Below are positions 2,599 to 23,191 of a DNA stretch of 23,240 nucleotides, piece by piece (the first letter of the stretch is position 1; every line of letters begins with the position of its first letter). The stretch comes from a virus. Location of the stretch: positions 1 to 23,240 of IMG/VR virus record IMGVR_UViG_3300045926_000231; one strand, 5' to 3'. Below the pieces are notes generated by a model. The model worked only from the letters and a program-made list of their open reading frames with translations, did no database searches and was not told the origin of the DNA. A program made the position numbers and the translations under genes.

Positions 2599-3612
2599 TC
2601 AGGGATATTTGATCAGGTCGAACTCAATGTCGTTCTTCCATGACATATGCTTCACGTGCGAGCGGTTGTATTGGAGGATCCGCACATCGGTCCACTCAGT
2701 GCCGTACTTGTCGCGAAAGATGAACGGGTTAGCTATCCGCGCCTGGTTCCAGAACTCGTCGAAGATCACCGTCTGCTCCGGCGTGCGTGCGAGGTAGTTG
2801 TACTGCCACCGGCGCGGAGGAGTGTCGGCCACTTCGTTGAACGTCCGGCCGCGGTCCTCGTATTCGTAGGAATCAGTAATGTCCTGGTACCGCAACGGCT
2901 CGGCGTAGAACCGGGACCGCTTGAACTGCATAAGATCATCACTGGGAAAATAGAACGGCAACCCCAATTGCCAGGCTGAAAACTTGATATTGAAATAAAG
3001 CCTTATGCGCTCAACTTCGGTTGACGTAAGCACTGAATCATAAAAAAGAACTTCGAAGATATAGCCTTTCCAAATGCGGCCGGCGAGATCTCTTTGCCGT
3101 CCGACCTGCAATCCGTCGAGCCCGAAGCCGCCGCTGTTCGAAACCTCGATCAATGCGGCGTCGCCATTAACCGGGGCCTGCATATTGTTTTGAGCGTAAA
3201 GTACCCCGTTCTTTACATAGCTCACGACTACCGGCGTGAGATCGAAAAACTTTGTGCCAGAGCTTTCGCTCAGCAATATGTCGCCACTGGTCTCGCCTCC
3301 GACAAGCCCACGGTTCGTTGTAAAGGCCGCCTCGTCATTGCTCGCAAGAATAAAAACATGCTTCGGAAAAATGCTGCCGGTCCAATTCAGGGGCACCGTA
3401 GTAGAGCCGTTAAAATACCAGCCCGGATGACCGTATAGAACATCGGCCGTAAGCACCGGAGCATTGAGGACCGCACAGTCGATCGAGCGTCCGTTCCCGG
3501 AATAGTCGTAAATGATGTTGTGGCCCGAGACCCCCATCTCATACATGTGCCAGGCCAAGAGCCCCGAGGTAGGTATCAGTCCACAATTTTTCCATTCTTG
3601 GGCTGTCGGCAT
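2599..3612 (-). CDS. Distal tail-like protein with N-terminal LamG/concanavalin-like domain
   Basis: This 337-residue protein appears to be made of two parts. Residues about 15-220 look like a LamG/concanavalin A-like jelly roll: GLLAWHMYEM, YDYSGNGR, GWYFNGST, and near the end of the domain GYIFEVLFYDSVLTSTEVERI, which is the typical last strand and helix of LamG_3-type domains. Residues about 225-337 resemble phage distal tail or DUF2460-like proteins, with F.FRDKYGTEWTDVRI and HMSWKNDIEFDLIKYP at the end. Distal tail proteins form a ring between tube and hub, and a jelly-roll domain there could bind host glycans. The ATG lies 8 bases after the tape-measure stop and lacks an obvious ribosome-binding site. 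The LamG part is well supported by pattern; the distal-tail part is by motif and position. Confidence 0.7.
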   Translation of the reverse strand: MPTAQEWKNCGLIPTSGLLAWHMYEMGVSGHNIIYDYSGNGRSIDCAVLNAPVLTADVLYGHPGWYFNGSTTVPLNWTGSIFPKHVFILASNDEAAFTTNRGLVGGETSGDILLSESSGTKFFDLTPVVVSYVKNGVLYAQNNMQAPVNGDAALIEVSNSGGFGLDGLQVGRQRDLAGRIWKGYIFEVLFYDSVLTSTEVERIRLYFNIKFSAWQLGLPFYFPSDDLMQFKRSRFYAEPLRYQDITDSYEYEDRGRTFNEVADTPPRRWQYNYLARTPEQTVIFDEFWNQARIANPFIFRDKYGTEWTDVRILQYNRSHVKHMSWKNDIEFDLIKYP

Positions 3613-3620
3613 ATCTGGAT

Positions 3621-6242
3621 CTATGAGTAACGCTCGATGAGAACCTTCATTCGACCATTGCGATTCGCGTCATCTTCGACCACATCAAGAACTCCTTCGG
3701 AGTTCAGTTTCACGTGCAGCTGAGCCTGCAATGGCGTCGCCTGATTTATACCCGACTCAACGATCACCGGCTCGCGGCTCGAGTAAACCTGTCCCTGTCC
3801 GGACGTGTTGGAATTCTGACCCGAAGAAGAACTCGATGCTGTGCTGTAGCCGGACTGAGCTTGTCTGTTAAAACTGTTGCCGGCGATCGCACGTCCGGCG
3901 AGAGCTGCAACACCGGCAACGGACCCGTAGAACGCAGCCGCCGTGAATGCCCAGGCCGCACTCTCGTACTGGTGGGTAGCGAGAAAGAAAAAACCTTCGG
4001 CAGTTGCCATGATCGCCTTTACGGCTGCTTCGGCTGCGACTGATGCGAGGGCTGCGGCGAGAATCTGCCGCATTACAGCGGGGCCGGTCTTTCCGTAAAG
4101 CACCCACTGCTCGACGACGCTGCCGATCGCTCGGGCGACATTCATGAACGCCGTCTGCATCATTCGGGAGAGGTCTATGACAATGGCGTTGATGGTCGGC
4201 GCGGTGGAAGTAATGAGATCGAAGAACTCCATCCAGCTCGCCATCCACGAATCAAGAATGCCTTGCTCGGGCAGGATCTCCGGCGTAGGCGTCGTGATTC
4301 CCGGCCCGCCTTCTTCCGCTCCGGCCTCGATACCCCACACGCGATCGCGAACCGCTTTCAGGTCCTGTTGGTATTTATCGAAAGCTTCGAGACCCTTCTG
4401 GTAATACAGCTCTTCGATAGTCGCCTTTTGTTCGACCTCGTTGGCCTTGCCTTTGATCGCCTCGAGCTGCCTTTGTTTTTCGGCCTCGATCCGATCCTGC
4501 TGGGCGTGAAGATCGAACGTGAGCTGCTCGTATTCGAACTGGTGGAGATCCTCGCGATTGGCAAGAACGTTCCGTCCGGCACGGATCTCGGTCTCGTAAC
4601 GCTCGCGCTCGCTTTGCCGCCACATCTCGAGCCGGGACTGCTCAATGCGGCTCATTTCTTTTTCGATCTTCTCGGCTTCGGCGATGACGGTCTTGCCATG
4701 AGTCTCGACCAGTTTCTTATCGGCCTGGAGCATCGCCTCGATCCGGTTATTGAGAGCGTCCGTACGCTCCATCATCTGTTTTTTGAGGAGAGCTCCTTGC
4801 GGATCGGACTCGTCGGGATTACCGACTGCCTGGCGTTCGAGCTCGTAAAGTTTCTGGGAGACCTCATCGATCTGCTGCACGAGACTTCTCAATGCAGATT
4901 CTTCTTTAGTGGCGAACGTGGCGGTATCGCCAGTCTTCTTGAATTCCTCGCGAAGCTTCTCGAGCGTTCTGGTGAAATCTTCCTCGATGTCTTTAAGAAA
5001 CGCTTTTTCGAGTTGGACCTGTGCGTTGAGATCAGCTTTGATAGCCGCCTCACGCTCGCGGGCCCGCTTTTCGGCCGCGGCTTTCGCGCGTTCCTGTTCT
5101 TCGTCGCTTATACCGAAGCTCCCGGGGCCTGCTCTTCTCCCGCCGGCACCACCAGCACCGGTTGCGTCCGACTGTCCCTGGGAAGCTGCTCGCTGATTCG
5201 ACCACTCGCCGACGATCCGGCCCAGATTCATCGACGCCTCACTGATCCCGAAAGTACCGATCGCGAGAGCTACGCGGATGACCGTCTGATTGTCATTGAT
5301 AAAATTGACAAGCCCCTTTAGGGCATAGATGGAATCGCTTAGCACGCGGGCGATAACTCGGCCCCAGTTCGCCACCTCCTCTTGGTTATCTTTCAGCCAG
5401 TCGCTGAGCTCTTCTGCAAGTTTTTGAAACTCGGGCATGACGGCGAAGCCGATGGTACGGGCAACGCCGGAGAGCTGCGCGTTGAGCGTGTCCATCTGGT
5501 CGCCGAACTCATCAGCCGCACGCGCCGCTTCGTCGTCGATCGTGACGCCGAGCTCTTTTGCTTGTTTGGTCAGCTCCTCGAGATTGCCGTCGAAGGATTT
5601 TATGAACGGGAGCAGCTCGGTTCCGGATTTACCGAAGGCCTCCATCGCGAGGGCCATCTGCTTCGTTCCGGATTCTGTTTCGGCGATCGTCTTCAGGGCC
5701 TGACCAAGGGCTGTGTCCAGGTCATCGGACGTAACCCCGAGCCGCTTCATTTTGTCCTGGGCTTTTTCGGAACCGTTCGCCGCTTCATTCACAGCTCTCG
5801 CAAACTTTGCGGATCCCGCGGTGATCGCCTCTAAAGAAGTGCCTGACTGGTCCGCGGCGAATTTCATCGCCGACAATTTTTCCGCGGAGAGGCCGGTCTT
5901 CTCGCTCGCGTCGAAGATCTCCGATCCGTAGTCGGCTGCCTGAGTTGCGAGATCGAAGAGAGCTCTCGTTGCGGTAACGGCAGCGGCGGCAGCTGCAGCA
6001 AGACCCGTGGCAGCGATGCCGACAGCAGCACCCACGGCGGGCATTGCACCGGCGAGCTTTCCGGCTGCGCCCTCGCTTAGGCCTATGCTTTGAGCGAAAG
6101 ACTGAAAGCCCCCGGTGCCGGAGGTCCCGGCAACCTGGGTTGTGTCTTTTATTTCTTTCTGAAGCTCGCGAAACTCTTTTTGAGCCTGGTCTGTATCGCC
6201 GACAGCACGAAAGAGAAGATCTGATGCGGATGCGATGGCCAC
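3621..6242 (-). CDS. Tail tape measure protein
   Basis: At 873 residues this is the longest gene in the window and lies directly after the tail assembly chaperones, the invariant position of tape measure genes. The N-terminus carries a short charged helix, then an Ala/Gly-rich hydrophobic stretch (about residues 62-95), then SEKTGLSAEKLSAMKFAADQSG and AFGKSGTELLPFIK, typical of the TP901-type tape measure core. Residues about 375-620 are highly charged and helical (coiled coil). A second hydrophobic region at about 715-790 (QILAAALASVAAEAAVKAI and following) matches the membrane-active C-terminal part. Such proteins set tail length and are ejected ahead of the DNA. The start is a GTG at 6242 with no visible Shine-Dalgarno; the nearest in-frame upstream stop lies about 30 bases away, so no better start exists. 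Confidence 0.93.
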   Translation of the reverse strand: MAIASASDLLFRAVGDTDQAQKEFRELQKEIKDTTQVAGTSGTGGFQSFAQSIGLSEGAAGKLAGAMPAVGAAVGIAATGLAAAAAAAVTATRALFDLATQAADYGSEIFDASEKTGLSAEKLSAMKFAADQSGTSLEAITAGSAKFARAVNEAANGSEKAQDKMKRLGVTSDDLDTALGQALKTIAETESGTKQMALAMEAFGKSGTELLPFIKSFDGNLEELTKQAKELGVTIDDEAARAADEFGDQMDTLNAQLSGVARTIGFAVMPEFQKLAEELSDWLKDNQEEVANWGRVIARVLSDSIYALKGLVNFINDNQTVIRVALAIGTFGISEASMNLGRIVGEWSNQRAASQGQSDATGAGGAGGRRAGPGSFGISDEEQERAKAAAEKRAREREAAIKADLNAQVQLEKAFLKDIEEDFTRTLEKLREEFKKTGDTATFATKEESALRSLVQQIDEVSQKLYELERQAVGNPDESDPQGALLKKQMMERTDALNNRIEAMLQADKKLVETHGKTVIAEAEKIEKEMSRIEQSRLEMWRQSERERYETEIRAGRNVLANREDLHQFEYEQLTFDLHAQQDRIEAEKQRQLEAIKGKANEVEQKATIEELYYQKGLEAFDKYQQDLKAVRDRVWGIEAGAEEGGPGITTPTPEILPEQGILDSWMASWMEFFDLITSTAPTINAIVIDLSRMMQTAFMNVARAIGSVVEQWVLYGKTGPAVMRQILAAALASVAAEAAVKAIMATAEGFFFLATHQYESAAWAFTAAAFYGSVAGVAALAGRAIAGNSFNRQAQSGYSTASSSSSGQNSNTSGQGQVYSSREPVIVESGINQATPLQAQLHVKLNSEGVLDVVEDDANRNGRMKVLIERYS

Positions 6243-6279: not shown

Positions 6280-6594
6280 TTACCAGACATTGGGATTGTC
6301 ATTCGGATCAACCGGGCCGCTGCCGTTCGCTTCCGTTTCTTCACTGCCACTCTCGAGGATCTTCTTCGGATCTCCGCCAAGCAGTCCGGTGGCCATCGCC
6401 GCGAGGCTCTTTATCAGCGACTCGAGTCGTTTGTAATCGCGCGAATCGAAGTGCTCGACAAGGATCGAGACCGCCGCGAGGTCCAAGTCGAGGGCCAGCT
6501 GTTCGTTGTTGCTTATTTTGAGAAGGTCTGAGGGCCTTTTACCGAAATGATGACCTGTCAGTGCCAGCCAGAGAAGGTTATCCTTGTGCGTCGC
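6280..6594 (-). CDS. Tail assembly chaperone, downstream (frameshifted) part
   Basis: This frame continues the chaperone family pattern (THKDNLLWLALTGHHFGKRP, then DLL and a helical stretch with LVEHFDSRDYKRLESLIKSL) but has no usable start codon. It is open from 6642, and the first ATG, GTG or TTG is a TTG at 6486, which would remove the conserved-looking LWLALTGHHFGKRP part. It overlaps the end of the preceding chaperone in a different frame (+1, equal to -2). Tail chaperone pairs just before the tape measure are widely made by programmed frameshifting (lambda G/GT type), so I annotate this as the C-terminal 104 residues of a fusion of about 245 residues. The coordinate given starts just after my preferred slip codon. 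A sequencing indel is the main alternative. Confidence 0.7.
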   Translation of the reverse strand, partial: ATHKDNLLWLALTGHHFGKRPSDLLKISNNEQLALDLDLAAVSILVEHFDSRDYKRLESLIKSLAAMATGLLGGDPKKILESGSEETEANGSGPVDPNDNPNVW

Positions 6595-6642
6595 GAAACG
6601 AAGCCAGGGACTCGCCCTGCTTACCTCCTGCCCAGATCCATT
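6578..6642 (-). promoter_or_regulatory. Probable programmed frameshift window with internal SD-like sequence
   Basis: Between 6642, where the downstream frame opens after a TGA, and 6578, where the upstream frame ends, the two chaperone frames overlap by about 65 bases. On the minus strand there is a perfect Shine-Dalgarno-like AGGAGGT at 6629-6623 inside the coding sequence, and no start codon follows it in the second frame. A possible slip is the codon UUU followed by C (6598-6595), because tRNA-Phe can re-pair from UUU to UUC in the +1 frame. The 25-base distance to the SD-like site is longer than in prfB, so the exact site is uncertain. Confidence 0.5.
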
Positions 6643-7018
6643 TCATGATCGCTTCGAAATCTTCCGGCAAAATATCTTCCGGAGTGATCGCGTCATCCGG
6701 CAGCTCGGTCCCCGGCTCCGTATTGATGACCACTTTCGGCTCGACGGCGCAGTACTCGAGCATTCGCTTGCCCACTTTTTGGGAATCAATAAAATCCTGT
6801 TCAGTGAAATGGCGAAGCACGTACTCGTTGACCGCGTCTTTCTCTTTGGTCTGAGACGCCTTTTGCATCTTCGCCGTGAGCGATGCCGGCAACACACCCG
6901 TGGTCACCCACTGCTGAATCGGGGCGACGCGCATTTTGAACACCGCGCCGGACGGCAGCAACAGTTCTTCGACCACCTGCTTTTCGGAGGCGAGTTTTTT
7001 GTATTCAGAAGCCTTCAT
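6578..7018 (-). CDS. Tail assembly chaperone, upstream part
   Basis: This 146-residue protein sits between the tail tube and tape measure genes, where tail assembly chaperones are always found in long-tailed phages. It begins with a charged segment (KASEYKKLASEKQVVEELLL), followed by LPSGAVFKMRVAPIQQWVTTG, a phrase typical of small tail chaperones and related tail proteins in which a modified tail component is presented. The C-terminal part (PEDILPEDFEAIMKWIWAGG) is acidic and helical. The chaperone and its frameshifted long form would coat the tape measure during tube assembly. The ATG at 7018 has no Shine-Dalgarno but follows a terminator hairpin by about 40 bases. Its end overlaps the downstream frame, which has no start codon, supporting production of a short and a long form. 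Confidence 0.75.
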   Translation of the reverse strand: MKASEYKKLASEKQVVEELLLPSGAVFKMRVAPIQQWVTTGVLPASLTAKMQKASQTKEKDAVNEYVLRHFTEQDFIDSQKVGKRMLEYCAVEPKVVINTEPGTELPDDAITPEDILPEDFEAIMKWIWAGGKQGESLASFRDAQG

Positions 7019-7118: not shown

Positions 7119-7706
7119 TTATGATGTCTGGTACCAAAGGGCTCCGACGAGATCCGTTGCGGCTCGCGACGTCACCGCGAGACCAACGAACTCGAGCGAG
7201 ATCTTCGCCCTGGTCTGGCGGCTGATCGGCATCTCGAACGGAGCATTGTTGTAGGCCTGATATAGATGGAACACCACGTATTTTGTCGAATCGGCCTTGG
7301 TCGGCGCGATCACGGCAACACTGGTAAAGCTCAATGTCCCCTCACCGATGGTCCAGGCTTTCTTTCCGGTCGGGGTAAGAGGCGTTCCCACGCCGACGGT
7401 CGCAATGCTCAGAAGATCTTCGTCGAGGACCTGGGACGCATCGCACTTGATCGTTGCCCCGATCTGATCGAGATTGCGCTCAAGCGGGTATTTGAACTCG
7501 TCAAAGAACTCTTCGGTAAAGGTTTTGGTCATCCCGATCATCGCCCCTTGCTCGGTAAGACCGACCAGCTTGCGATTAGGATTCTCCGTTGCATCCGGAG
7601 ACCCGCCCGTGAGCGTCAGGTACTGACTCGCCGCCGGGACCGCCAAGCCGAACCAGATACGCCCGGCGTTCTTTTGAGTTTTGGTGACATCGATCGAAGT
7701 TCCCAT
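7119..7706 (-). CDS. Major tail tube protein
   Basis: This is a 195-residue protein with the composition and layout of a tail tube protein: a short N-terminus (MGTSIDVTKTQKNAGRIWFG), a central strand-rich region (VGLTEQGAMIGMTKTFTEE, DEFKYPLERNLDQIGATIKC) and a C-terminal half rich in T, S, V and A. Tube proteins polymerise into stacked hexamers around the tape measure. Its position directly upstream of the chaperone pair and tape measure is diagnostic. The ATG at 7706 is preceded by GAGAGAG at a fair distance. A strong hairpin with a T-tract follows the stop codon, as expected for a gene whose product is needed in hundreds of copies. I base the call mainly on gene order and length; the fold itself is inference. 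Confidence 0.8.
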   Translation of the reverse strand: MGTSIDVTKTQKNAGRIWFGLAVPAASQYLTLTGGSPDATENPNRKLVGLTEQGAMIGMTKTFTEEFFDEFKYPLERNLDQIGATIKCDASQVLDEDLLSIATVGVGTPLTPTGKKAWTIGEGTLSFTSVAVIAPTKADSTKYVVFHLYQAYNNAPFEMPISRQTRAKISLEFVGLAVTSRAATDLVGALWYQTS

Positions 7707-10099: not shown

Positions 10100-10465
10100 T
10101 TATGAGCCGCCCTTGCTGGGCAGTACGTGAAGGGTGCTGAACGTCTCTTCGCCGCTTCCGGGAAACTTGCGGACCGAGCCGTCCGGCAGTGTGAGCTTTA
10201 TTTCAACGTCGTAGGTATTGACGTTCTCGGTGAATGTCTCGTCGAGAAGATATTGAACTTTGCCAGGATAATTCACCTGGTTGAGGATCGTCACCTCTTC
10301 ATCGAGAACAAGGACCGTCTCTGCATCGACAGTAATTTTGATGCGAGCTGTCGAGCCGTCAGGGATCTCGTACGTTTCTTTCCGGCCGGTGAGCTCGTTC
10401 TCGTGCTTTAGAGTGATCACCAACGGGTGATTTTTATTTCCCTGTTTTATATAGCCGTCGCCCAT
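10100..10465 (-). CDS. 121-residue beta-rich protein coupled to the repeat adhesin
   Basis: The start codon shares its A with the TAA of the 618-residue gene (TAATG at 10465), so the two are translationally coupled. The protein is almost all strand-like: HPLVITLKHENELTGRKETY, STARIKITVDAETVLVLDEEV, DVEIKLTLPDGSVRKFPG. This resembles the N-terminal beta-sandwich of phage baseplate or appendage proteins (BppU-like) and small Ig-like structural proteins, with a short domain of about 100 residues. It has no signal peptide. It could anchor or complement the repeat protein on the virion. I cannot place it in a named family, and the coupling is the firmest clue. Confidence 0.75.
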   Translation of the reverse strand: MGDGYIKQGNKNHPLVITLKHENELTGRKETYEIPDGSTARIKITVDAETVLVLDEEVTILNQVNYPGKVQYLLDETFTENVNTYDVEIKLTLPDGSVRKFPGSGEETFSTLHVLPSKGGS

Positions 10466-12321
10466 TAATTGAACTCGAGGAAAGTTTTTCCGGAAGAGAT
10501 CTCTACGAAAGTCTTGTCCGAGCTAAACTCTACAAAAGTGGCACCGCTGTTGATTTCGATCCCGAGGGCTCCATGAGGCCGCACGAACGGAGCGATCACG
10601 GTAAAGATCACATCGCCTCCGTTGTAGACAAAGACGCCGCCGGAGGCAGTGAGCACGTAAGTCGCCGCCGAACTCTTAAAGAGATTTGCATCATTGCCGG
10701 TGTAGACAAAGACTGCACTGCTCGCCGCTAACAGTCGCGAGAAGTAAAGTCCGGCATCTCCGCCAGCGTATGTGAAAACTCCTGTCAGCGGGCTCAGAAC
10801 GAAGCTACGCAGCAGGTTCACATCGCCGCCCTGGTACGAAAAACTGCCACCAGCTCCGTTGATCAGAAAACCCTTCGAGAGATTGACGTCGCCACCTGCA
10901 TAGCTGAACGTCCCCACCGCGGCTGAGAGCAAATGCTTCCAAAGCAGATTTGCGTCGCTGCCCGAATAACTAAAAGAACCCGGATCAGCCGTGAGCGTGT
11001 ACTGGCCCGGCTGTGTCTTGAAGAGATTGGCGTCGTTGCCGACGTACGTGAAAGTTCCGGCATCTGCCGCAAGCAACCGACCGATCAACAGTCCAGCATC
11101 ACCGCCTGCATAACTGAACGCGCCGGCGAGAGCTGCGAGAACCCGACCGTAAAGAAAATTCGCGTCTGCTCCTGCGTAACTGAAGACTCCGGCCTCAGCT
11201 GAGATCAAAAAGCCTTTGCTTAAATTCGCGTCGCCACCAGAATAGCTGAACGTACCCGTAAGCGCCGTGAGCAAGCGCCCGAAAAGTAGATTCGCATCGC
11301 CACCTACGTAACTAAAGACTCCAGCTTCAGCGAGAAGACCAAAACCTCGATTAAAATTAACGTCGCCGCCGGCGTAAGAGAATGTGCCTACATCGGCATT
11401 TATAAACCGGCCGACATATAAACCCGCATCACCGCCGGCGTAAGCAAAAGAGCCGGCATCGGCCGCCAATCGCCGACCGTAAAGCAAATTCACATCGCCC
11501 CCGGCGTAAGAGAACGTACCCGCCTCGGCCGTCATACCGGTGCCCTTGGCGAGCCCGGCATCACCACCGATATAAGAGAAAGAGCCCGCATCGGCGGTAA
11601 GTTTTAGCCCTCGATAAAGCCCGGCATCGCCGCCGGAGTATGAGAAAGAGCCGGCCCCGGCCGTAATCGAAAAGGCCCCCGCTGTGGGCTTAACATAGCA
11701 AGTGAGGCAACCCCAATGCTCCGAGGTTGAAAGGGTGCCGATCGTTTGGGCCCCGACGATCGAACCGGCCGAGGGCATCGCCTTATATATAACGCGAAAG
11801 CCGGCCTGCGTACCGGTTGCCGAGGTTGCGTTATCCGCGGTCCAACCCGATGGCGGGTTGCCGCTCGAAAAGCCGGTATCATCATTATGGGCGCAAAAGG
11901 CGATCGCCAAAGCATCGGCCCATACCGTATTGCCGGAGTCGGTTGTCGGGGTTGTACTGTCGCCGTTAGTTGTGCCGAAACCGCCAAAGAGATCGTTAAG
12001 CGGATCCTCTGTAGTGATCACCCCTCTTAATGCGTAGCAAATGGCAAATTGATCCGTACTCGCTGCCGTAATTGTCGGGCCCGCGGTGCCGGCACCGGTT
12101 GCCCTTTTCCAAAACCACGCAACCCGAATAGTTCCCGTTGTTATCTCGACTTTTTTAGTCCATCCCGAGGTTGAGGTACTCATCGTGGAATTTGCCGCAT
12201 TCATTGAAACGGCAACTAGGATATCGTCAGCTTGATGGGTTGGCGGGGTTGGCGTAGTAGAGGCCCCGCCCGAGGTATCGGTTGCGATCGCGCCGGGTGC
12301 AATGAATGTTGGAACCGCCAT
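10465..12321 (-). CDS. Repeat-containing adhesin-like phage structural protein
   Basis: The 618-residue protein has three parts. Residues 1-212 form a unique, Thr/Ser-rich domain (begins MAVPTFIAPGAIAT, includes WFWKRATGAGTAGPTI and YALRGVITTEDPLND) of a type common in phage fibre and neck proteins. Residues 223-572 hold 16 tandem repeats of 22 residues (two are 26), consensus aGxFSYxGGDanLxxGrxLxAe. Residues 587-618 carry three short 9-residue repeats (SGATFVEF, SSDKTFVEI, SSGKTFLEF). It has no signal peptide and therefore should act in or on the virion. The gene lies between head genes and connector, not with the tail tip, which suggests a head- or neck-attached fibre. The ATG at 12321 directly follows a terminator and has no Shine-Dalgarno. 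Function as an adhesin is inference. Confidence 0.8.
   Translation of the reverse strand: MAVPTFIAPGAIATDTSGGASTTPTPPTHQADDILVAVSMNAANSTMSTSTSGWTKKVEITTGTIRVAWFWKRATGAGTAGPTITAASTDQFAICYALRGVITTEDPLNDLFGGFGTTNGDSTTPTTDSGNTVWADALAIAFCAHNDDTGFSSGNPPSGWTADNATSATGTQAGFRVIYKAMPSAGSIVGAQTIGTLSTSEHWGCLTCYVKPTAGAFSITAGAGSFSYSGGDAGLYRGLKLTADAGSFSYIGGDAGLAKGTGMTAEAGTFSYAGGDVNLLYGRRLAADAGSFAYAGGDAGLYVGRFINADVGTFSYAGGDVNFNRGFGLLAEAGVFSYVGGDANLLFGRLLTALTGTFSYSGGDANLSKGFLISAEAGVFSYAGADANFLYGRVLAALAGAFSYAGGDAGLLIGRLLAADAGTFTYVGNDANLFKTQPGQYTLTADPGSFSYSGSDANLLWKHLLSAAVGTFSYAGGDVNLSKGFLINGAGGSFSYQGGDVNLLRSFVLSPLTGVFTYAGGDAGLYFSRLLAASSAVFVYTGNDANLFKSSAATYVLTASGGVFVYNGGDVIFTVIAPFVRPHGALGIEINSGATFVEFSSDKTFVEISSGKTFLEFN
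10606..11655 (-). repeat. Sixteen tandem 22-residue repeats (about 66 bp each) inside the adhesin-like gene
   Basis: Units begin at residues 223, 245, 267, 289, 311, 333, 355, 377, 399, 421, 447, 469, 491, 513, 535 and 561. Two units (10 and 15) are lengthened by four residues with the related inserts TQPGQYTLTAD and SSAATYVLTAS, five units apart, pointing to a past block duplication. Aromatic F and Y, the GGD turn and the L at fixed spacing are nearly invariant, which fits a beta-solenoid or stacked beta-hairpin fibre. The DNA copies differ at many positions while the protein consensus is kept. Confidence 0.9.
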
Positions 12322-16476: not shown

Positions 16477-18687
16477 TTAAGCAGTCACGAAAACGTGAAA
16501 ACACCGGCAGCGGTCCTGCCCTTCGCATTCAGGATTGGGTGCAGCTGGCAGATCTTCTTCACTTGCCGCCGTCTCACCGTCGGCATCGGCGCATGGACCG
16601 CAAGTATTCGCGTCGAGAACCGCTGAATACATCACCGAGCTCCACGCCTCGGTCTGTGATTCGGCCTCTGCTGATCGGCCAGACTGAATTGCCGCATTGA
16701 CCGCACCCCCCGCTATGCGCTCGATAAATTTGTCGCTCTGGGCAAGCAGGAGATCTTGCAGTTTCTCGATCGTGTAATCGACGAGCATCTTGAGGGTTAG
16801 ATACTCATTGATCGCGCGCATGCTGATCTCGTTGATAGTCTTCGAGATCATGCCATCGACAAGTTCATCCAGATAATCCAGCCAGTCATTATCGAACTCG
16901 TCTTTGCGGTCTAGGGATTTTTCCGCATCTTGGGCCCTGAGTTCGCGGCTTACCTGGTCGCGGCCCGTCTTGAACGAAGACGCGATCGCTTTCTCCAGGT
17001 CTTTGCGTATTTTCGGATCCGGAATGAGGATCAGCGTGTGAGCTGTTTGCGGGGATAACTTGTCGAGCTTGGAGCATGCCTGATCGATCAGGTCCTCACG
17101 AAAGCGTTTTAGGATCTTGATCGATTTTGCTTTCTCGCTCTCGAGATCCGCCACGATCGCTTTGAGGTCAAGCAGTTTCTCAAGCTCACTTGGCTCGCGG
17201 CCGAGCGTCAGGCCTTCGTAGTCGAAAGTTTTTTTTTCGAGGGGTATTTTTAGAATTTTCTCATCATCTTCTTCGTCATCAGATCCTTCCTCTGTCTTAT
17301 CGTCCGCCTCTTCATCCTCTTCGCTCGTCTCGCCGTCGCTGGGCTCTTCTCCTGGCTGAAGTAATTGTGCAGGCACAACCGGTTCTTCTATGGCGTCAGC
17401 GGCCCTGCGTTCAGGGCTAATGGCTATAAGCGTTGAGGGCTGGACATAGTAATCGTCACCCGCCTCGTCATCAGGAGCCTGTCCTGTCTCCTGACGAGCT
17501 TCGTTCAGCTTCCACAATCCAGCTTTGAAGTTCTCTCGGGCCCGCTTATGCCGTGCATCGACATCTTCCTGCAAAAAGGCAGCATGCGAAACATCGAAGC
17601 TCACGCGGATCTTCTCCATCTTGATCGCGTCGATCCCTTCGAACTCCGGCAGAAAAAACCAGGTGAGCCACTCACGCAGAGACGCGAGCTCCGGGCTGAT
17701 CTTGTTATCCCAGAAATTATTCAGCTCGGCCTTCGCGGTGGCATTCGCAGTAACATGCTCGAGGCCGACATACGCACCAACCAAATTCGGAGGCACGCCG
17801 AAGACAGCGCATATACGCGATTCAAAGCGTCCGGTGAGCTCTGCTGATGCAAGCTCGTCGAGATTCGAGCCTATCTTCTGGAACTCGGCATTCTGGTCCA
17901 GCACAGCAACGCCTTTCTGATTAGACCCGCCGCGGCCGTATTTCAGTTTCCAAAGCCGCTGCAGCTCCTCACGCCGTTCGTTCTTAACCGTGGCGTTCAG
18001 GATTTTCAATATTCCCGACGGCGTACCGTCAGACTCAAAGAAGGCGTCAACGTAATCAGTAAAACCAAGATCTGAGTTAATGCTCTTTAACGCAGCCTGC
18101 AATGGTGCAAAACCAAAGAACTGATCAAGCAGGTCCGGACGCCGGCGAATGATCATATCCTCCGGACGGATCTTCACCACGGAACCGTTGCGTTTCTGAT
18201 ATTCGTAGTACTCGATCGCGTCCTGATTAGCGTTCCACCGGACAACGACCTGATTGGGATTAAGCAGTGAGATCTCGACAGGATTCCCCGCACCCGAGCG
18301 ATTCAAAAACGCATAAAAAAAACCGAAGCTCTGCTCGGACTGCACCATTAGCCGGCGAACGTCCCGACCGGTCTGGTATGAATTCGGCCTCTTGAACAAG
18401 GCCGTGAGCGGGTGACCTTCTTTCTTTTCCCACTCGCCTTTGCCGTTCTTTGTCTCAACGATGATCTCCGCGTCGTTCATGACGTCGGCGATCTTGTTGA
18501 TGCACGCGTACACGAGCTCGTGAGAGCGATACGCGATGAAACTAGACTCCTGATTATAGGGAATGCGGGTGTTCTGGCGATGAACACCGAGACCGAACCA
18601 ACTCCAGCCGTTCGAAGTGCTATCGAGAAAAGTGACCGGCTTGGCCTTTTTGCTTAAAAAGCCGCTGATTTTTTCGAGAAGCTGCAT
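16477..18687 (-). CDS. Portal protein fused to MuF-like C-terminal domain
   Basis: The gene encodes 736 residues, well above the usual 400-520 for HK97-like portals. Residues 1-420 are the portal: VYACINKIADVMNDAEIIVE, HPLTALFKRPNSYQTGRDVRR, ELTGRFESRICAVFGVPPNLVG and EHVTANATAKAELNNFW are typical. Residues about 433-477 form a strongly acidic linker. Residues about 500-736 are helical and end in the signature of the Mu gpF/SPP1 gp7 minor head family: WSSVMYSAVLDANTCGPCAD, then CEGQDRCRCFHV. The portal ring is the DNA entry and exit channel; MuF-like domains sit on it inside the head. The ATG overlaps the terminase stop (TAATG at 18687), so the two are coupled. A fused, single polypeptide form is less common than two genes. 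Confidence 0.93.
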   Translation of the reverse strand: MQLLEKISGFLSKKAKPVTFLDSTSNGWSWFGLGVHRQNTRIPYNQESSFIAYRSHELVYACINKIADVMNDAEIIVETKNGKGEWEKKEGHPLTALFKRPNSYQTGRDVRRLMVQSEQSFGFFYAFLNRSGAGNPVEISLLNPNQVVVRWNANQDAIEYYEYQKRNGSVVKIRPEDMIIRRRPDLLDQFFGFAPLQAALKSINSDLGFTDYVDAFFESDGTPSGILKILNATVKNERREELQRLWKLKYGRGGSNQKGVAVLDQNAEFQKIGSNLDELASAELTGRFESRICAVFGVPPNLVGAYVGLEHVTANATAKAELNNFWDNKISPELASLREWLTWFFLPEFEGIDAIKMEKIRVSFDVSHAAFLQEDVDARHKRARENFKAGLWKLNEARQETGQAPDDEAGDDYYVQPSTLIAISPERRAADAIEEPVVPAQLLQPGEEPSDGETSEEDEEADDKTEEGSDDEEDDEKILKIPLEKKTFDYEGLTLGREPSELEKLLDLKAIVADLESEKAKSIKILKRFREDLIDQACSKLDKLSPQTAHTLILIPDPKIRKDLEKAIASSFKTGRDQVSRELRAQDAEKSLDRKDEFDNDWLDYLDELVDGMISKTINEISMRAINEYLTLKMLVDYTIEKLQDLLLAQSDKFIERIAGGAVNAAIQSGRSAEAESQTEAWSSVMYSAVLDANTCGPCADADGETAASEEDLPAAPNPECEGQDRCRCFHVFVTA

Positions 18688-20111
18688 TAGATAGTGATGC
18701 CCAGGCTGTTGTTGTTCATTACGCCGTATCTGAATGCGTCCGGGTGATCATCACCGCCGTTGCCCTGCTCATCGCAATCGACCTTGAGAACGTCTTCCGG
18801 ATCGTTCGGGTTGTGCATCAGTGCCGGCAGGCGCTCGATAAGTCCCGTACATCTTGATGAGATTCTAATTGACGCTTCTATTTGTTGGGTTTCATCACCT
18901 AAGAGCTGCAGGATCTTGCCCCAGCCCGCACGACGGGACACGTTAGCAGGTCTGAGATAGATACCGTGCTCGGCAAATTCGTCGGCAAAGCTTTCACCGG
19001 TGTCGCCTTTCTTCGCAAAGACATCCGTACCGGCAACGAAGTTGATGAGGTCATCTACTGTTAACAGCCAACGCGAAAGCATCGCGTGTATGCCCTCGCA
19101 GTTCGAACTGATCAATTGCTTGCGTGCGGCAAATTCGTCTAAGCAGAAAATTTCTCCGTCATACTCTGCAAACAGGTAACAGATCGTCCAATGTTTGAAA
19201 CCGTAATCGAGCGAACACCAGAACGTAACGGCGTTCCGGAGATCTTCGCCCTTGAAATCAGGCTCATCCTTCGGCTCGTAGACATGCAGGTCGTATCTGA
19301 AGTTCTCGAAATACTGACCCGCGAATATGTCTGGATCACCATCGAGCCAGGCTTTACGCTTCCATCCGGAGAGGGCCTCGAGTTTCGAACGATAAAAGGG
19401 ATCGACCCGCTTATTGTCGTAAACCGTCGCAGGCACGAACCGGGTGATCGTTTCATTGCCATCACGAAACGGCTGGAGAAAGCGTTTCTTGAGATAGGTG
19501 TGGGAGAGCCCGCCCCAGTTGAATGTCATGTAACAACGCGGCTTGAAGTCAGGGATGGAAGTTCTGTTTACCGTTTTTATTTCTTCGATCTTATTTTGGG
19601 AGAGCTGTTCGGCCTGCTCGATAAAGATCACGTCGTACTCGAGCGAAAGGTACTGGTTAATATCTTTCTCGTACTGAAAGTGACCGATCTTGATGCTGCT
19701 GCCATTAGGAAAATAGATTATCGATCGCGTTGGTCGATGCGGTACACGCGGCAGGACCTTTGTGCAGAGCTTCATCATCGACTCTTCCGCCGAGCCCGCT
19801 TTCTCGCGAAGAAAGAGAACACTCAGCCCATCCCACTTCTGGCAATCGTCGATCGCGATCTGCGCGAAACCGCAATGCGTCTTACCGCCGCCGCGGGCAC
19901 CGCCGTAACCGATGTCTTCTAGTTCGGGGATGTGGTCAGCAGCTCGCGCGAAGCCATGAAAGAGCAACTGCTTTGGCTGGGGAATATAACCTGCGAGTAA
20001 AAATCTCTCGAGAGAATCTTTCGGCACCCCCGCGGCTTTAGCTTGCCTGATCAGGCTTAGCGTGCTCTCCGGCACTCTCGCCTTCGGTGTCGGTATCTGT
20101 GCCGTCTGCAT
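18687..20111 (-). CDS. Terminase large subunit
   Basis: This 474-residue protein has both parts of the packaging motor. The ATPase carries Walker A GGARGGGKT (residues 70-78) and Walker B VIFIEQAEQ (about 161-169, with E165 as likely catalytic Glu and no preceding Asp). The C-terminal RNase H-like nuclease has SLDYGF (D302), GTDVF (D363) and DDHPDAFRYG (D455/D458), the expected acidic set. It would pump DNA into the prohead at the portal and cut the concatemer. The start ATG at 20111 overlaps the small subunit gene by 74 bases and has only weak AAGAT upstream; a GTG at codon 13 is an alternative. The stop overlaps the portal start. Confidence 0.95.
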   Translation of the reverse strand: MQTAQIPTPKARVPESTLSLIRQAKAAGVPKDSLERFLLAGYIPQPKQLLFHGFARAADHIPELEDIGYGGARGGGKTHCGFAQIAIDDCQKWDGLSVLFLREKAGSAEESMMKLCTKVLPRVPHRPTRSIIYFPNGSSIKIGHFQYEKDINQYLSLEYDVIFIEQAEQLSQNKIEEIKTVNRTSIPDFKPRCYMTFNWGGLSHTYLKKRFLQPFRDGNETITRFVPATVYDNKRVDPFYRSKLEALSGWKRKAWLDGDPDIFAGQYFENFRYDLHVYEPKDEPDFKGEDLRNAVTFWCSLDYGFKHWTICYLFAEYDGEIFCLDEFAARKQLISSNCEGIHAMLSRWLLTVDDLINFVAGTDVFAKKGDTGESFADEFAEHGIYLRPANVSRRAGWGKILQLLGDETQQIEASIRISSRCTGLIERLPALMHNPNDPEDVLKVDCDEQGNGGDDHPDAFRYGVMNNNSLGITI

Positions 20112-22615: not shown

Positions 22616-23191
22616 TCACGCTCCTAATAGCATCGTGATGTTGTCGCTGAGTTTTCCCATGTCGGCTGTCGCGTTCGTAATCGAGATGCCGCCGGTTGCT
22701 TGTGAAAGCTTTCGCAGGAATTCCCGCCCCTCACCCGTCTCCGGCCCGATGTAGATCGTGTCTATTTTTGAAGTGAAGCGAGACGCTTCACGGAGCGTGC
22801 CTTCGGCATCATCCGGCTCGCCGTCACTGATCAGGATCATCCTGATACCACAGCCGTCAGCCATCTTGAGCATTCGCAGTGCTGCTTTCATATCAGTGCC
22901 ACCGTGCATATTCACGGGCACGCCGCCTGGACAGAACTCGGCACGGTTCGAAAACGCACAGACACCGACCTCACCCGGGTTCTCGCCTTGGAGGGCGGCC
23001 AGCTGCTCACAGGCCGCTTGATAGCGCGATCTGCCGCCGGTCGTATCATTCGCACCCATTGAGGCGGACACATCGACCATGACGAGACACTTCACACTAA
23101 GAAACCCCGTCGCGATCGATGCATTGTTCTTTTTGGCGACAGCCTCAAGACTACCCGCCACCATTGCCTGATTCCCGTTATTAGCCTGCAT
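22616..23191 (-). CDS. von Willebrand factor A (VWA) domain protein
   Basis: The 191-residue protein is essentially one VWA domain. The metal-ion-dependent adhesion site is complete: DVSAS (D40, S42, S44), T99 in HGGTDM and D123 in ISDGEPDD. Strands CLVMVDVSASM, GEVGVCAFSNR, IRMILISDGEP and KIDTIYIGP alternate with helices as in the Rossmann-like VWA fold. Such domains bind a partner protein through a divalent metal. There is no signal peptide or membrane span, so it would act in the cytoplasm or virion. The ATG at 23191 has CAGGAG about 9 bases upstream. VWA proteins are unusual next to phage packaging genes; no MoxR ATPase is visible in this window, but it could lie beyond the right edge. 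Confidence 0.85.
   Translation of the reverse strand: MQANNGNQAMVAGSLEAVAKKNNASIATGFLSVKCLVMVDVSASMGANDTTGGRSRYQAACEQLAALQGENPGEVGVCAFSNRAEFCPGGVPVNMHGGTDMKAALRMLKMADGCGIRMILISDGEPDDAEGTLREASRFTSKIDTIYIGPETGEGREFLRKLSQATGGISITNATADMGKLSDNITMLLGA

Follow-up and report, generated by a model that had tools for sequence, protein, structure and literature searches.

Depending on the phage, tail assembly chaperones rely on a -1, -2 or +1 frameshift (reviewed in PMC5009743). In phage lambda, gpG and gpGT are encoded between the tube and tape measure genes, and a startless second frame is fused to the first near its 3' end by a -1 shift on a tandem slippery heptamer (PMC5009743). Here we describe two overlapping frames with the same gene order and a startless second frame, in an IMG/VR virus record (IMGVR_UViG_3300045926_000231) of 23,240 bases, hereafter called the window, to which all coordinates refer. 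Judged by their conservation among relatives, the two frames are very probably a lambda G/GT-type tail assembly chaperone pair fused by a programmed +1 ribosomal frameshift at a UUU_C site. Whereas lambda uses a heptamer, the window family would shift by +1 on the single P-site codon of UUU_C. The relation is +1 in all 102 pairs collected, and the lambda type of -1 heptamer site does not apply to them. Its absence does not exclude the wider kind of tail chaperone, since -2 or +1 shifts are known in others.

The PA-X site of influenza A virus, UCC_UUU_CGU, shares with the phage loci the UUU_C P site, a CGN codon in the A site, the +1 direction and the lack of a downstream structure (PMC3498833). 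There, the junction peptide supports re-pairing from UUU to UUC and the +1 direction, and the E-site UCC raises shifting but is not essential; the existence of a class of UUU_C sites was predicted in that work, with candidates named in eukaryotic RNA viruses (PMC3498833). The window has the P-site UUU, the C that follows and the CGN codon, with UCG in place of UCC in the E site. Unlike PA-X, the phage sites belong to DNA phages and a bacterial ribosome, have an unconserved E-site codon and, in about half of the family, carry a Shine-Dalgarno-like element upstream. Within bacteria, prfB (release factor 2) and Listeria tsh also shift by +1 through P-site re-pairing (PMC3711429, PMC5009743), whereas the window has a sense codon, CGC, in the A site and its Shine-Dalgarno-like element 24 nucleotides upstream. 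The -2 shift of the phage Mu tail chaperone (PMC5009743) leads to the same final frame, but its direction and slip site differ.

The chaperone frames and their relatives

The zero frame of the pair (6578..7018 including the stop codon, minus strand) encodes a 146-residue protein, "G", assigned to the tail assembly chaperones from its open reading frame (ORF), gene position and profile homology. The second frame, the "T" domain, is a startless open frame at 6280..6642 on the same strand, recognized by homology to relatives; its stop lies at 6280 and its post-shift coding part is 6594-6283. An initial annotation of this DNA had placed the frames, a UUU-C at 6598-6595 and an AGGAGGT at 6629-6623 correctly. 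Its overlap of about 65 bases in the +1 (= -2) relation agrees with the 65 bases and +1 phase found here. It had also reported no start codon before the conserved downstream sequence, and our scan of the second frame for ATG, GTG and TTG indeed found none ahead of a TTG at 6486, itself within the conserved domain. Translation of 6283..7018 (minus strand), with TTTC taken as one Phe step, gives a predicted GT-like fusion of 245 residues, the size that had been anticipated (about 245), with the predicted junction ...SLASF-ATHK....

A related pair (65% identity and, for the T frame, 53%, in the same phase) is found in IMG/VR contig 3300009553_000010 (G001), with the tube gene at one end of the contig and the pair at the other, an arrangement that linearization of a circular genome would produce. 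More distant copies are present in virus Rctr41k and phage ctLpZ231. In all three relatives the phase is +1 and the overlap contains an in-frame TTT_C; the Rctr41k site, UCC_UUU_CGU, has the same nine bases as PA-X. The search chain led from Rctr41k to Curtobacterium phage Shrew and on to actinophages of Microbacterium, Arthrobacter, Gordonia, Micrococcus and Nocardia, with whose T domains the window's T frame can be aligned. The 102 pairs comprise 17 from a first set gathered in this way, 72 IMG/VR loci, 11 further phages and 2 Gordonia phages, some of them near-identical copies of each other. Many come from uncultured phages, and the others from phages of Microbacterium, Gordonia, Mycobacterium, Arthrobacter, Nocardia and other hosts. 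The fused families are divergent, with a median pairwise identity of 33%, and of 21% for the window against the rest.

The G proteins of Shrew and Rctr41k match Pfam DUF7391 (PF24117) and the PHROGs tail assembly chaperones (phrog_4336 family), and the window G protein aligns with the actinophage tail assembly chaperone profile at an hhalign E value of 9e-7. A relative's G protein gave a confident predicted structure (predicted local distance difference test, pLDDT, of 83); the model matched no solved structure in the PDB, and its matches among predicted viral structures were confined to tail assembly chaperones of its own family and a few unnamed phage proteins. The fused window protein, modelled without an alignment, gave a structure too poor for use.

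A DNA-level search of phage genomes with the chaperone region gave no match, and neither the T frame nor the tape measure found anything when used as a single-protein query against IMG/VR. Bacterial genomes, scanned with the G protein as well as the actinophage G alignment, yielded no prophage form and pointed to no host. A match of the T frame to Serratia phage Totoro (E 0.5), in a non-tail context, was taken as chance. A protein at 3001-3477 of another IMG/VR record (IMGVR_UViG_3300009034_000055), directly before a tape-measure-like gene, is 38% identical to the G protein over its first 48 residues only; this locus (L002) has no second frame, was excluded from the 102 pairs and possibly encodes a chaperone without a T extension.

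The UUU_C site and competing readings

The site lies at 6595..6598 on the minus strand (TTT 6598-6596, C 6595) and, with its A-site codon, reads UUU_CGC at 6598-6593. In-frame TTTC makes up 0.64% of codons in the window (41/6363), giving a chance expectation of about 0.13 in the 21-codon overlap. Taken alone, the TTTC is only suggestive; taken across relatives, the sequence comparison is decisive. Each of the 17 pairs in the first set has the +1 phase and a single in-frame TTTC in its overlap, at the same aligned place, and in a tblastn search with the Shrew second frame, homology to other phages starts beside the shift codon (query residue 77). The 72 IMG/VR loci were collected by scanning with two alignments of actinophage proteins, one for the downstream and one for the upstream half, both halves of each locus being located by profile searches, and the motif played no part in their selection. 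Every one has its second half in the +1 frame and exactly one in-frame TTTC in its overlap, coinciding with the start of the downstream profile (offset 0). The 11 further phages, mostly of Mycobacterium, have TTT_CG in 10 cases and TTG_AAA_AGT in Mycobacterium phage Onyinye (L103, NC_070765). The Gordonia phages DaviePasture (L107 1109) and Alyssamiracle (L108 1103) have UUU_CGC. In all, the +1 relation holds in 102 of 102 pairs, none of which has one continuous frame, and the UUU-C picked out in the initial annotation as a plausible +1 slip has an in-frame TTT_C counterpart at the homologous place in 101, all but Onyinye. The AAA_A at the junction of Onyinye would also permit perfect +1 re-pairing and appears to be a natural substitution.

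In those 101 pairs TTT_C is placed exactly where zero-frame homology stops and +1-frame homology starts; amino-acid conservation tracks frame 0 as far as the UUU codon, then switches to frame +1. This pattern bears on a -2 ribosomal shift in the style of Mu, which would reach the identical phase and for which a GGGCGAG upstream in the window and G001 might serve. That run is missing from the other relatives, however, zero-frame conservation persists right to UUU, and at none of 66 nonredundant TTT_C loci could tRNA-Phe re-pair two bases back at the conserved codon, so that we consider a -2 shift very unlikely.

The bases of the site are themselves constrained. A DNA alignment of 15 loci has TTTC as its sole run of four invariant bases, and the hexamers at the 66 nonredundant loci are TTTCGT (47), TTTCGC (16), TTTCCT (2) and TTTCTG (1), i.e., UUU_CGY in 63, with variable E-site codons. 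Elsewhere in these genes Phe is encoded by TTC 247 times and by TTT 53 times, and in-frame TTTC occurs 10 times per 10,421 codons; given local codon use, the log10 probability of TTT at all of 57 loci is -40, with shared ancestry ignored. Neither protein explains this invariance, because a P-site slip inserts Phe for TTT and TTC alike; it is explained by the need for UUU to re-pair with UUC in the predicted slip.

The same invariance is left unexplained if the second frame is a separate gene, translated from the internal AGGAGGT with a nonstandard start codon or by reinitiation. The perfect Shine-Dalgarno-like sequence inside the overlap would suit such a gene, and many public annotations give two separate ORFs. 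Against it stand the lack of a start ahead of 6486 in the window and the results from the relatives: no conserved start codon for the second gene exists in them, no start precedes the conserved Trp in 8 of 57 loci, and the zero-frame stop varies from 21 to 123 bases past the site. We judge a separate gene to be as improbable as a -2 shift. Much fainter still is the prospect of gene decay, or of an error of one base in sequencing (as the initial annotation had raised) or in assembly, which a metagenomic contig of unknown coverage might suggest: isolate genomes and independent contigs share the frame relation with both frames conserved, and with the layout present in all 102 relatives a one-off error is ruled out. 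Transcriptional slippage is just as negligible, accounting for the frame relation and nothing more, with a run of three T's and no homopolymer of the length at which polymerases slip.

Several points weigh against a programmed +1 shift at UUU_C. The near-identical loci are not independent, and the probabilities are overstated to that extent. The C, G and Y after UUU are to some extent dictated by Arg in frame 0 and by Val or Ala in frame +1, and because the amino acids of both frames constrain these bases, any effect of their own cannot be separated out. There is no support for a rare-codon pause in the window, because the A-site CGC is its commonest Arg codon. The window G protein falls below the Pfam and PHROGs thresholds and was placed through profile comparison. 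RNA structure around the site has a mean z score near 0 over 57 loci, with no 3' structure detected; the PA-X site is likewise without an evident stimulatory signal (PMC5009743). Finally, the case for the shift and its product rests on sequence in every member.

By analogy with lambda and PA-X, the majority of ribosomes would stay in the zero frame and make the 146-residue G-like protein, while in a minority the P-site UUU would re-pair to UUC, moving the ribosome by +1 to yield the 245-residue fusion. The two products would be made in a low fixed ratio, the G part sitting on the tape measure and the T part recruiting tail-tube subunits.

The initial annotation had also thought the +1 direction unusual. 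In this it was partly anticipated, as some phages had previously been suspected of +1 shifts or annotated with them (PMC5009743): the records of Aesir, TinyMiny, Wollypog, Fowlmouth and Onyinye, which have the homologous pair, join their tail assembly chaperones with a +1 length. The papers that we found do not describe the shift site or its conservation, and the records of most other members show two ORFs. DaviePasture and Alyssamiracle have both halves listed as separate hypothetical proteins, and the study covering them names Fribs8 as its sole phage with a predicted (-1) frameshift (PMC13355239); for cluster DJ Gordonia phages, the authors report no recognizable tail chaperone slippery sequence (PMC12859696). 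We found no paper in the open-licence literature naming UUU_C as a phage shift site. Thus +1 tail chaperone shifts as such were already known, and the conserved UUU_CGY sense-codon site in phages is apparently new. The phage loci would make up a large natural collection of bacterial +1 shift sites at sense codons, conserved over deep divergences and exemplifying the UUU_C class proposed by the PA-X authors, with variation that could reveal rules for the A site, the E site and the upstream Shine-Dalgarno-like element. They would also correct the annotation of many phage genomes that list the second chaperone as a separate gene.

The upstream Shine-Dalgarno-like element

The internal AGGAGGT of the window (6623..6629, minus strand), a possible stimulator, lies 24 nucleotides ahead of UUU. 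In the family, a GGAGG-like element at -24 to -19 pairs with the anti-Shine-Dalgarno more strongly than do synonymous recodings of the peptides concerned (z about -7). An exact match of at least 5 nucleotides, at any position in the 40 bases upstream, is found in 34 of the 66 nonredundant loci, 22 of these at -24. The window element is about 6 bases further upstream than that of the family, the spacing to the shift codon being 18-24 nucleotides. Attention to the AGGAGGT in the initial annotation was thus rewarded in that the element is enriched beyond chance, although some members lack it and any function is putative. The GGAGGU-like element is enriched in about half of the family, more than amino-acid constraint would account for, at a spacing that fits no known frameshift stimulator. 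In prfB and dnaX the Shine-Dalgarno spacings are unlike that of the GGAGGU element. It is likely a stimulator and may pause or position the ribosome. More tentatively, UUU_CGY might be a general forward-slip signal of bacterial and eukaryotic ribosomes, tuned here by a new type of stimulator, a GGAGGU some 18 bases before the shift codon and so at a distance well beyond that in prfB or dnaX; we consider this possible but doubtful.

Genome setting

The late genes of the window are on the minus strand and run from terminase (18687-20111) through portal, protease, capsid and neck genes to the tail tube, the chaperone pair and the tape measure. The pair is flanked, as in lambda, by the tube and tape measure genes. 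The probable major tail (tube) protein (7119..7706, minus strand) was assigned from its position and its identity to relatives' genes, 79% to the G001 copy and 28% (E 1e-3) to the gene preceding the chaperone pair in MW202444. The tape measure protein (3621..6242, minus strand) matches PHROGs tail length tape measure families (E 2e-21).

Two other minus-strand genes may be noted. One, at 10465-12321, encodes a 618-residue protein with about 12 degenerate repeats of about 22 residues (F-[ASTV]-Y-x-G-G-D...), for which a Pfam search gave no match. The other, at 22616-23191, close to the contig end, encodes a von Willebrand factor A domain protein (PF13519, E 7e-7).
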